From the NCBI GenBank assembly GCA_003215655.1, contig QCKB01000002.1:124001-188000 (forward strand): a DNA stretch of 64,000 nt, given 5' to 3'. The notes under the pieces are model-generated. The model did no database searches. It worked only from the letters and a program-made list of their open reading frames with translations, and had not been told where the DNA came from. Both the position numbers and the translations under genes were made by a program. Positions 35,761 to 38,943 of the stretch are shown here, one piece after another (the stretch's first letter is position 1; every line of letters begins with the position of its first letter). This stretch comes from Prochlorococcus sp. AG-409-J16 (GTDB lineage Bacteria; Cyanobacteriota; Cyanobacteriia; PCC-6307; Cyanobiaceae).

Positions 35761-36333
35761 TTAGTCGTTGTGCTGAACAATACTGTCGATAGTTATCAAC
35801 TGTTCTTGAAAGCTAAGCATTTCATTTAGAGACTCTTGGTTTGGGTGCTCCCATCCCAAAAGATGAAGGAGACCATGGCTCACTAGCCAGCGGAGTTCTT
35901 TGATTAGTGCATGATTATGTTCTTTAGCTTGTTGGCGAGCTCTTGTTACTGAAATGATTATGTCACCAAGTTCTATGAATCTATTCTCGGGACAGATGAT
36001 TTTTTCATCAAGTGCTGGGAAAGAAATGACATCAGTTGGTTCTTCCTTTTTGCGCCAACGAGCATTCAGCTTTGTAATTGTTGCATCATCAGTCAATTGA
36101 AGCCCTAGGCTCAAAGCATTTGCTGATCGCACTATTTCTTGACAGCAAAGATTTTTGTTGGTTCGAGTTGCATTTATCCAGCAGATGATGTCTCTTTGCC
36201 ATGGCATCTCACTGGTTAGTCTCTGTCGAGTTGACGCATCCATAGGCTCATTCAATAGTGCTTTAGATGCTCCTTCGAATGCTAAATCTAGTTCCAGACC
36301 CAGAGTTGATTTCCGGACTGGCTTGGTGTTCAT
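35761..36333 (-). CDS. ybeY: Endoribonuclease YbeY (16S rRNA maturation)
   Basis: 190 residues. The zinc motif HGLLHLLGWEH (HxxxHxxxxxH) is complete, preceded by LSLGLQLTDDATITKLNARW and TDVISFPALDE. Single-strand ribonuclease for 16S rRNA 3' end processing and quality control. The N-terminal ~25 residues are not typical and may reflect a later start. Between a DUF3285 gene (7 bp) and dgkA. Confidence 0.94.
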   Translation of the reverse strand: MNTKPVRKSTLGLELDLAFEGASKALLNEPMDASTRQRLTSEMPWQRDIICWINATRTNKNLCCQEIVRSANALSLGLQLTDDATITKLNARWRKKEEPTDVISFPALDEKIICPENRFIELGDIIISVTRARQQAKEHNHALIKELRWLVSHGLLHLLGWEHPNQESLNEMLSFQEQLITIDSIVQHND

Positions 36334-36340
36334 AATGAAA

Positions 36341-36532
36341 TCAGCTAGGAAGGTTGGGGCGACCCAACCAAGCGAGAATAAGAATAAAACCTAGAAACCC
36401 AGCAGCTGTAAGGCTGAAGTGCCATAAGCTTTGTTGACCTTTACGCACCATGTTTTTCATAGCAAGTTTTACAAAACTTGGTGGCGGCGCATTGGTTGCA
36501 GGAGCCGCTTTAGATGTTTGATTGGCTTTCAT
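36341..36532 (-). CDS. DUF3285-like small membrane protein
   Basis: 63 residues: a polar Ala/Pro-rich start, then PPSFVKLAMKNMVRKGQQSL and one hydrophobic helix (LTAAGFLGFILILAWLG). It resembles the cyanobacteria-specific DUF3285 family as I remember it. Function unknown. Conserved position between prfB and ybeY would suggest one transcript. Confidence 0.7.
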   Translation of the reverse strand: MKANQTSKAAPATNAPPPSFVKLAMKNMVRKGQQSLWHFSLTAAGFLGFILILAWLGRPNLPS

Positions 36533-36549
36533 GATTTTTAGTTAGTTCT

Positions 36550-37669
36550 TTAGTTAATCTCGGGTCCTTCTACACTTTGCCGAAGCAGAGCTTGAATGAA
36601 AGGATCTAGATCTCCATCCATTACTCCTTGTACATCTGTTGTTTCTTTGTTAGTCCTTAAGTCTTTAACCATTTGATAAGGGTGAAATACGTAGTTTCGA
36701 ATTTGGTTGCCCCAGGCGGCTTCAACAATGTCACCGCGGATATCTGCGATTTCTGCTGCTCTTTGTTCTTGGGCAATAACTAATAACTTGGCTTTTAAGA
36801 GGGCCATCGCTTTTTCTTTATTTTGCAATTGAGAACGTTCTTGAGTGCATCTAACAGCTAAGCCAGTTGGAATATGCAGAATTCGCACGGCTGTTTCGAC
36901 TTTATTGACATTTTGTCCTCCTGCTCCTCCGGATCGGCTAGTAGTTATTTCTAAATCCTTCTCTGGGATATCCAATTCAACTTCCTCATCAATTTTGGGC
37001 ATCACCTCAACACCAGCAAAGCTTGTTTGTCGTTTGTCATTTGCGTTAAAAGGCGAGATTCTTACAAGTCGATGTGTACCTTTTTCATTTTGTAGATAAC
37101 CATATGCATACCTTCCTTCTACTTCAATTGTGGCGCTTTTGATGCCTGCTTCTTCTCCCTCAGACAATTCATCTACGGTTACTTTCATACCATGGTCTTC
37201 GGCCCAGCGGGTGTACATCCTGAGGACCATTTGCGCCCAGTCTTGAGCATCTGTTCCTCCTGCGCCAGCATTTATTGACAGGACTGCTCCTTCTTTGTCA
37301 TAGGTCCCACTAAGAAGACGTTCTAGTTCCCATCTTTCAAGGTCTTGCTTTAATTTATTTAGGCCAGTTTGGGCTTCCAGAAGGAGATCTTCATCTGGCT
37401 CTAAAGCGTATAGCTCAACTGTAGCTTCTGCGTCTTCTACGATTTTTTGCCAGCGAGAAAGTTGATCTAACTGTGCTTTGATTTCATCAAGATTACGAAG
37501 TTGTTTCTGTGCATTTTGTTTGTTTTCCCAGAAATTTGGTTGTGTAGCAAGTTGCTCTAGATCCGATCGTTTGGCTTGGAGTGCAGGAACGTCAAAGACA
37601 GTCCTGGACAAGGCCCAGGCGATCTGTTAGCAACGAAAGGTCTCTTTTGAAGTCGGTTAAATCCTGCAA
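36550..37669 (-). CDS. prfB: Peptide chain release factor 2, with programmed +1 frameshift
   Basis: RF2 recognises UAA and UGA. The long frame contains the GGQ motif ([11 protein letters not shown]) and the tripeptide-like region [14 protein letters not shown]. Its true 5' end is in another frame: reading the minus strand from TTG 37669 gives [20 protein letters not shown], then VQDCL, then CTT-TGA-C at 37597-37591. A +1 slip over CTTTGAC joins to DVPALQAK. The combined product is about 372 residues, normal for RF2. ATG at 37720 is an alternative start (389 residues) but leaves only 25 bp to grxC. Without the frameshift the product would look 5'-truncated. Confidence 0.93.
37591..37597 (-). 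promoter_or_regulatory. prfB programmed frameshift site
   Basis: Minus-strand CTTTGAC, the nearly universal RF2 slip site. The zero frame stops at TGA and the +1 frame continues with GAC. An AGGA, four bases upstream of CTT, could act as the stimulatory internal Shine-Dalgarno sequence. The site lets RF2 level control its own synthesis. Confidence 0.92.
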
Positions 37670-37745
37670 AGGTAGAGCTTGATCTTTGTAATTGACGCTA
37701 TCAGCTTGACGGTCCTTCATAAGATTGCAACTAATTCCAATTTTT

Positions 37746-38012
37746 ATGATGCCCAAAGTTGAGATTTATACATGGCAGCTTTGTCCTTTTTGCATACGGG
37801 CAAAGGCCTTGCTTGAGAGTAAAGGCGTTGTTTATCAAGAGTATTCAATAGATGGAGATCAAGATGCACGCTTGGCAATGGCTGATCGTGCAAATGGTCG
37901 TACGACGCTCCCACAAATTTTCATAGATAATCAATCCATTGGTGGATGTGATGAGTTGCATGATCTTGAAAGGGCATGTCAACTAGATGTTCTGCTAGGA
38001 CTTGCAGATTGA
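37746..38012 (+). CDS. grxC: Glutaredoxin 3
   Basis: 88 residues. Dithiol active site CPFC in [33 protein letters not shown] with the cis-Pro and the GG(C/S)D glutathione-binding signature. Reduces protein disulfides using glutathione. ATG at 37746 chosen over upstream TTG. It precedes gshB by 4 bp, giving a coherent glutathione operon, and diverges from prfB. Confidence 0.96.
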
Positions 38013-38016
38013 AACC

Positions 38017-38943
38017 ATGCGTCAATTATTTGTTGTTGATCCAATCGAACAATTAAAGCCTGAAAAGGATTCTTCAGTTGCCCTAATGGAGGCAGCCCAA
38101 CGGGCTTCCCTTGAAGTTTGGATATGTACTCCTGAAGACCTTCAAGCTAGAGGTAATGAAGCTTGGGCGATTGCTTCACCTGTTGTTCCCGAACCATGGA
38201 TTAATAGAGGTGAGCCTCAACGGCGTCCGCTTACTGATTTCTTTTGTGTTTGGATGCGGAAGGACCCTCCAGTGGATGATGTTTATTTATATGCGACCCA
38301 TTTACTTGAAATTGCGGAACGTGATGGAGTAAGGGTTGTCAATAAACCAGCATCTCTTCGTGCTTGGAATGAAAAGCTTGGGGCTCTTCGTTTTAGTCAT
38401 TTGATGGCACCAACACTTGTAGCTAGCAGGGTGGCTGAGCTTGCATCTTTTATTAATGAATTTGGAGAGGTGGTTTTGAAGCCTCTTGGAGGTCGAGCGG
38501 GTCAAGGAGTAATTCGTGTGGGTGAGGCTGCTCCAGGAGTTGAAGCCTTGCTTGAGTTGGTTACTGATCAGGAGCGTTTGCCAGTCATGGCTCAGAAGTT
38601 TTTACCAGAAGTTATGAGTGGTGATAAAAGAATCTTGCTAGTTAATGGAGAGCCGTTAGGTGCAATAAATCGTCGTCCCGCTGCGGGAGATTTTCGGAGT
38701 AATTTGGCTGTAGGTGGACAGCCAGAATCTACAAGAATTTCTAGCCGTGAAAGAGAAATATGTGATGCGCTAGCCCCTTCGCTTAAAGCTCAAGGACTTT
38801 TTTTTGTTGGGATAGATGTAATTGATGGTTTATTGAGTGAAATCAATGTTACTAGCCCTACTGGCATTAGAGAGGTTGAGCGCTTAATGTCTATTCCACT
38901 AGCTGATCAGGTAATCGCTTCTTTATTAAATGGTTGCACTTGA
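38017..38943 (+). CDS. gshB: Glutathione synthetase
   Basis: 308 residues from ATG 38017 (TTG 38002 lies in grxC). ATP-grasp enzyme joining gamma-glutamylcysteine and glycine. [76 protein letters not shown] and [20 protein letters not shown] are all GshB hallmarks. The last 37 bp overlap menF on the other strand. Confidence 0.96.

Follow-up and report, generated by a model that had tools for sequence, protein, structure and literature searches.

Programmed +1 frameshifting in prfB, the gene for release factor 2 (RF2), is a textbook case in which a duplex between a Shine-Dalgarno (SD) sequence and the anti-SD acts as the stimulator, and for E. coli prfB autoregulation by RF2-sensitive +1 frameshifting is established; a strong internal SD is the usual, not strictly required, feature of such sites. 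Frameshift sites with a weak or absent SD, for example in Flavobacteriales, were reportedly described by Naeem in 2024; they are like the locus presented here in that the frameshift site is retained with a weak or absent SD, and no hairpin stimulator is known for them. To our knowledge, a hairpin that stands in for the SD duplex is known from built reporters only. In a 2025 survey, prfB genes with the frameshift had an SD consensus near AGGGGG (PMC12421855). With a stable synthetic 12-bp hairpin placed before CUUUGA, +1 shifting in E. coli extract reached about 60% of that driven by an SD, and only without RF2 (Huang 2018, PMC6321510); in yeast, +1 shifting was raised by a designed GC-rich hairpin, 6BPGC (Cho 2013, PMC3639245). 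For phage T4 gene 60 an upstream stem has been proposed to pull the mRNA, and the same article names the SD sequence as the stimulator for RF2 (Atkins 2016, PMC5009743).

The locus lies in the window, by which the whole analysed stretch of 64,000 nt from Prochlorococcus sp. AG-409-J16 is meant (contig QCKB01000002.1, positions 124,001 to 188,000, forward strand); the genome comprises 1.84 Mb in 18 contigs, and its best matches among named records were Prochlorococcus, Synechococcus and Cyanobium. With E. coli-type prfB it has in common the gene, the sequence CTTTGAC, an early in-frame TGA, a zero-frame leader of about 25 codons and, presumably, autoregulation; it is unlike it in that the SD here is mostly AGGA lying under a 7-bp hairpin, whereas E. 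coli and 17 loci from other classes of the phylum have a longer SD and no such hairpin. The synthetic hairpins (PMC3639245, PMC6321510) resemble it as stems just 5′ of the slip site, in one case with CUUUGA, and were described as mimics of the SD duplex, but they were reporters, whereas the present hairpin is natural and class-wide, has 7 bp and a spacing of 5 nt and overlaps the SD-like sequence. The 5′ stem-loop of T4 gene 60 (PMC5009743) is likewise an upstream stem at the mRNA exit proposed to move the ribosome forward; there it serves a long bypass in a phage gene and not a +1 shift, and the likeness is one of description. The prfB frameshift itself was already known, and the class-wide hairpin in the place of the SD appears to be the new part. 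Among the literature matches listed, no title or abstract opening reported a cyanobacterial prfB hairpin, a prior mention being possible in Baranov 2002 or Naeem 2024, and the main text of the 2025 survey (PMC12421855) has no word starting with 'cyanobacter', no 'secondary structure' and no 'hairpin'.

The prfB gene consists of the following parts:

36550 to 37593, minus strand: main (+1) frame of prfB, the RF2 body, from GAC (37593–37591) to the stop codon (open reading frame list, PF00472, E. coli match)
37591 to 37597, minus strand: slip site CTT-TGA-C, with CUU in the P site and UGA in the A site, then C (sequence and comparison)
37595 to 37669, minus strand: zero-frame leader of 25 codons from TTG 37669, the supported start, to CTT (37597–37595) (codon-25 comparison)

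Around the slip site the minus strand reads ...CGCCTGGGCCTTGTCCAGGACTGTCTTTGACGTTCCTGCA...; the zero frame ends at the TGA that follows CTT and precedes C, and the RF2 body goes on in the +1 frame to 36550. The product matched PF00472 above the cut-off, a family that does not separate RF1 from RF2, and had as its best match a 12-kb stretch of E. coli K-12 with annotated prfB (E 4e-89), which together identify an RF2-type class I release factor; identity to 29 relatives with loci was 78–86%, and the main-frame translation contains the tripeptide SPF, which we take to be a mark of RF2. CTTTGAC was found at the same offset in 111 of 111 anchored loci (the window's own genome counted twice, some genomes present in both collections), so that the slip site is not due to chance. 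Across 194 anchored Cyanobacteriia loci, sampled across families and including repeats of some genomes, the slip site was CTTTGAC in 193 and CTTTGAA in one (L165), always at offset 0; the second release-factor match of the window's genome (L002), which has no slip site, and a short, unanchored locus (L207) were left out of this count, and two further loci were dropped because of a missing anchor (L003) or too little upstream sequence (L061). An earlier note on this DNA had claimed that prfB retains the programmed +1 site at 37597–37591 (minus strand), that CTTTGAC joins a zero-frame segment of 25 (TTG) or 42 (ATG) codons to the main frame and that a simple open reading frame call misses the 5′ end, and it had suggested an RF2 alignment as a check. 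All of this was borne out: the alignment placed the slip site at one position across relatives, the zero frame is open to CTT from both TTG 37669 (25 codons) and ATG 37720 (42 codons), and the mechanically called frame (36550–37611, TTG start) lacks the zero-frame N-terminus.

Immediately upstream of the slip site the following elements were delimited:

37613 to 37619, minus strand: 5′ arm of the hairpin, CCTGGGC (pairing counts, RNAalifold, frozen synonymous sites of CTG and CGC)
37610 to 37612, minus strand: loop of the hairpin, variable, with the TT of the spurious TTG start (37611–37609)
37603 to 37609, minus strand: 3′ arm of the hairpin, GTCCAGG, including the AGG of the SD-like AGGA
37602 to 37605, minus strand: weak internal SD-like AGGA, predicted duplex with the 16S tail −3.7 kcal/mol
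37598 to 37602, minus strand: spacer of 5 nt (ACTGT) from the stem to CTT, with the E-site codon TGT inside it

The hairpin CCTGGGC-CTT-GTCCAGG (37619–37603) thus has 7 bp and a 3-nt loop and ends 5 nt before CTT; neither it nor the AGGA is mentioned in the earlier note. All seven pairs were present in 166 of 192 Cyanobacteriia loci, six in 21, five in 4 and four in 1; the first 172 loci contained 43 distinct hairpin 17-mers. With 65 distinct sequences, RNAalifold predicted exactly this stem although it had not been supplied, and 94.5% of the pair cells in this alignment were standard; once the register of the stem was shifted, pairing was at most 56.5%. None of 500 shuffles reached the observed number of cells with changes in both partners (20; shuffles 10.1) or the observed covariation score (0.197; shuffles 0.142), whereas two of five measures, pairs with a change on both sides (2 against 2.1) and pair types (8 against 8.0), did not exceed them. 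Variation was found at pair 5 (GC 43, GU 12, AU 9, other 1) and at pair 7 (CG 29, UA 11, UG 9, other 16), the latter being unpaired in 16 of 65. After correction for the tree, covariation pointed in the right direction in an underpowered comparison and was not significant (median p 0.125 for pair 5 and 0.25 for pair 7): changes were 4.1 in the same and 0 in the opposite direction out of 5 pairs at pair 5, 3.4 and 0 out of 8 at pair 7 and, in a second contrast at pair 7, 3.1 and 0.5 out of 6. The 181-nt leader as a whole folded no better than shuffles (z 0.11), the stem nevertheless being part of the centroid; Rfam gave no match at the gathering threshold in 36000–38500 and none at E ≤ 1 in 37560–37760. 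Two picocyanobacterial loci (L020, L024) retained CTTTGAC with a decayed hairpin and an SD that is no stronger.

The conserved pairing stands at a constant distance from the slip site, while its distance from the start codon is not the same in all lineages, differing by at least one codon. This speaks against a stem that acts on transcription or on the fate of the mRNA (pause, attenuator-like terminator, stability) and not on the ribosome, an explanation we consider improbable. A terminator scan did call the stem terminator-like (1 found; mean 0.2, s.d. 0.5 in shuffles), the slip site supplying a tail ACTGTCTTTG that counts as T-rich; directly after the stem there is no T-run, the spacer and CTTTGAC being found there instead.

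Codon choice was analysed with a null in which the amino acids were held and synonymous codons were drawn according to the usage of each gene (2000 draws; 97 of 156 loci kept, those under 300 main-frame codons left out). In the 97 loci 672 pairs were observed, where the null gave 475 ± 10 and never more than 513 in the 2000 draws; the median single-locus P was 0.064, with low values in low-GC genes, and high-GC loci were uninformative (P 0.24–0.32 for the three with the highest GC). Since this null counts related loci as independent, codon changes were also counted along a tree built from 183 prfB sequences, using 223 columns with a conserved amino acid. The slip-site codons CTT(0) and GAC(+1) showed 0 changes each, followed by CTG(−7) and CAG(−3) with 1 each, GAC(−2) with 2 and CGC(−8) with 5; these six had the fewest changes per row of the 223 columns, the next having 19, and the median of Leu columns was 0.35 codon changes per row. 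The stem codon Gly(−6) was not frozen (25 changes in 167). In an alignment of 102 of 121 rows (near-identical rows dropped) the synonymous sites were fixed as CTG in 101 of 102, CGC in 98 of 101 and CAG in 101 of 102, columns of the same amino acids having medians of 0.46, 0.54 and 0.64, respectively. CTG and CGC provide bases of the 5′ arm, which lie before the SD and the slip site and belong to neither, so the freeze points to the stem; judged from codon choice, selection at the level of the nucleic acid acts on the hairpin stretch. That the pairing has no role as RNA and only follows from GC-rich codons and the conservation of a peptide (RLGxxQDYL or QDCL) is therefore very improbable. The peptide is itself conserved, and in high-GC genes between about a quarter and a third of the draws have all seven pairs by chance; this would, however, leave the frozen synonymous sites and the agreeing tree counts unaccounted for, as well as the 15 lowest-GC loci listed, 14 of which had seven pairs with a null P of 0.03 or less (exception L020).

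Of 242 Cyanobacteriia genomes searched with a covariance model, 238 contained the element; of 105 genomes from elsewhere in the phylum, none did. The sequences from which the model was built match by construction; among the 80 Cyanobacteriia genomes independent of model building 79 matched, and in a phylum-wide draw of 194 genomes the counts were 88 of 89 Cyanobacteriia and 0 of 105 others. The 105 genomes are dominated by one family (f45), and the model takes in the slip site, so that the absence in other classes concerns the element as a whole; in three of them (G186, G199, G318) only weak release-factor matches were present (E about 1e-51 to 1e-54), and its absence says little there. The four misses in Cyanobacteriia had either release-factor matches of only 34–38% identity (G045, G068, G088) or a 3′ fragment of prfB (G354), so no genome of the class is known that lacks the element while its prfB 5′ end is intact. 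Where the two were compared, the covariance match abutted the prfB match (e.g. G004, G009, G040, G056, G062, G102). The genome of L207 (G281) was among those in which the model found the element, and a second stretch from it (L292) was anchored. Each matching genome had one match except G072 with two: on its contig C196 (10413–12115; L234, L241–L243) two prfB 5′ ends with hairpin stand in inverted arrangement, from duplication or an assembly artefact.

Twenty of the 105 genomes of other classes were read directly, and CTTTGA was found in 17; the other three loci (L184, L194, L196) had no CTTTGA at prfB and are perhaps frameshift-free, as far as their sequence suggests. In the 17, AAGGAG, AGGAGG, CGGAGG or similar preceded CTTTGA and the SD was stronger in all; 2 to 5 of the seven stem pairs could form, within the range of shuffles, and the Cyanobacteriia stem was absent. 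Two loci of another class (L189, L190) had, in the same stretch, a strong SD plus a different predicted stem (−7.3 and −7.9 kcal/mol).

Predicted energies showed the corresponding difference. In the 65 distinct Cyanobacteriia sequences the medians were −3.7 kcal/mol for the SD (range −7.1 to 1.2) and −10.2 kcal/mol for the hairpin (−12.6 to −0.6), against −8.3 (−11.2 to −6.6) and −0.3 kcal/mol (−7.9 to 0) in 16 distinct sequences from the rest of the phylum and −10.4 and −0.6 kcal/mol in E. coli prfB. No strong internal SD (near AGGGGG) was found 3 nt before CTT in the window, where AGGA is present (−3.7 against −10.4 kcal/mol in E. coli), and on that account prfB is here called a variant. In the window's genome the 16S tail pattern GCTGGATCACCTCCT occurs once, as a putative intact tail, and loss of the anti-SD is therefore not a likely cause there; this pattern matched in 9 of 20 genomes, another one having had 0 matches in the window's genome, so that an intact tail is claimed for the window's genome only. 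Going by E. coli, the 17 loci of other classes and the published consensus, the strong SD would be ancestral; that an mRNA:mRNA hairpin took over from the mRNA:rRNA duplex at the base of the Cyanobacteriia, and has been nearly unchanged since, is a proposition to which we give an even chance.

AGGA was present in 61 of the 65 distinct Cyanobacteriia sequences, its AGG within the 3′ arm, so that stem and SD pairing are mutually exclusive. The main rival explanation is that the hairpin masks the residual AGGA, lowers frameshifting and tightens autoregulation. We regard this as unlikely: the SD of Cyanobacteriia is already so weak that there is little to mask, a still weaker SD would do the same job and leave the 5′ arm free to vary, and no correlation between the strengths of SD and hairpin was seen within the class (rho −0.03). 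It is also improbable, to much the same degree as an effect on transcription, that the weak AGGA is still the stimulator and the hairpin only averts a competing structure or times the ribosome. Directly after the stem all 65 sequences have the same unpaired A, which would fit a working SD, but this A is also the second base of an Asp, Glu, His or Gln codon there; a stronger AGGAG stands alongside the hairpin in 8 of 65 sequences (−6.6 to −7.1 kcal/mol, reaching the weak end of the range of other classes), and the 16S tail of the window's genome matches the intact pattern, whereas the AGGA of the class is far from the near-AGGGGG consensus of prfB with the frameshift in the survey (PMC12421855).

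On the best reading, the hairpin would be an intramolecular mimic of the SD duplex that stimulates the +1 shift, the direction of the effect being taken from the synthetic precedents. The elongating ribosome would unwind the stem and then pause, CUU occupying the P site and UGA awaiting scarce RF2; the stem could then re-form where the mRNA leaves the ribosome, 5 nt before the P codon, act like an SD:anti-SD duplex in drawing the mRNA backward, and so help peptidyl-tRNA-Leu to move from CUU to UUU. The residual AGGA may play a part as well, in alternation with the hairpin. The complete proposal, an RF2-sensitive +1 frameshift in a prfB translated from the 25-codon TTG, with a conserved hairpin as the main stimulator in Cyanobacteriia in place of a strong internal SD, seems to us slightly more probable than its negation. 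Against the mimic reading stand L020 and L024, where the hairpin has decayed without compensation by the SD, the lack of a trade-off between SD and hairpin strength within the class, the 8 sequences with both AGGAG and the hairpin, the other stem in L189 and L190, and the dimensions of the native stem, 7 bp compared with the 12 bp of the synthetic 70S hairpin, with a spacing here of 5 nt; in eukaryotic −1 attenuation tests the hairpin effect fell by half when the spacing grew from 2 to 5 nt (PMC3639245).

If the mimic reading is true, a class-wide hairpin in the place of the SD would mean that a frameshift stimulator is exchangeable in evolution, prfB of Cyanobacteriia would be a natural case of the hairpin-mimic mechanism, and the model of a duplex at the mRNA exit could be tested by mutants of the two arms; L020 and L024 are useful natural tests of the role of the hairpin. 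It would moreover aid the correction of annotated prfB starts in cyanobacteria.

Translation of prfB would begin at TTG 37669, and comparison largely settles the ambiguity of the start in favour of this codon. Upstream of it lie the divergent neighbour and two candidate elements:

37749 to 38012, plus strand: grxC (glutaredoxin), divergent neighbour with ATG 37749 (named by resemblance)
37720 to 37725, plus strand: proposed −10-like TAAGAT of grxC, with one base in common with ATG 37720 of the other strand (recurrence)
37694 to 37704, no strand assigned: recurrent intergenic element CTGATAGCGTC in the divergent region between grxC and prfB (recurrence)

In 105 distinct picocyanobacterial upstream regions codon 25 was TTG in 54, GTG in 45, CTG in 3 and another codon in 3. 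ATG was found at codon 42 in 11, with an open frame after it in 4, and a stop codon occurred within codons 42–26 in 47. grxC was divergent from prfB in 115 of 120 picocyanobacterial loci, and was not found upstream of prfB in 73 other Cyanobacteriia loci. TTG 37669 leaves a gap of 79 nt to the grxC ATG (family median 82), while ATG 37720 would leave 28 nt; the A of this ATG overlaps the antisense of TAAGAT, with a similar context in 8 of the 11 cases with ATG at codon 42. The conserved TTG/GTG at codon 25, the rarity of an open ATG at codon 42, the gap to grxC and the −10-like overlap thus make TTG 37669 the better start. A start at ATG 37720 is less likely, its equivalent being open in 4 of 105 regions only and its A lying inside the antisense −10-like box. 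A main-frame start at TTG 37611 can be set aside, since this codon begins in the hairpin loop, whose bases vary among relatives.

The TTG or GTG start of picocyanobacterial prfB (37667–37669 here; 99 of 105) differs from the ATG found at codon 24 or 25 elsewhere in the class, outside the picocyanobacterial family (68 of 73 loci), and is perhaps a second damping of RF2 synthesis. The earlier note had also held that the two starts differ in the room they leave for the grxC promoter. The difference in room stands, with the two gaps given above, while the promoter itself is a proposal: a consensus scan of 37580–37860 gave no promoter, and TAAGAT is put forward from recurrence, its antisense form ATCYTA being present in 50 of the 104 distinct regions upstream of prfB, where base shuffles gave 4.6 on average (related sequences). 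CTGATAGCGTC was found exactly in 20 and with two mismatches or fewer in 62 of 104 distinct picocyanobacterial regions (base-shuffle mean 0.6, related sequences), most often 22–25 nt before the prfB start, and is a possible promoter or operator.
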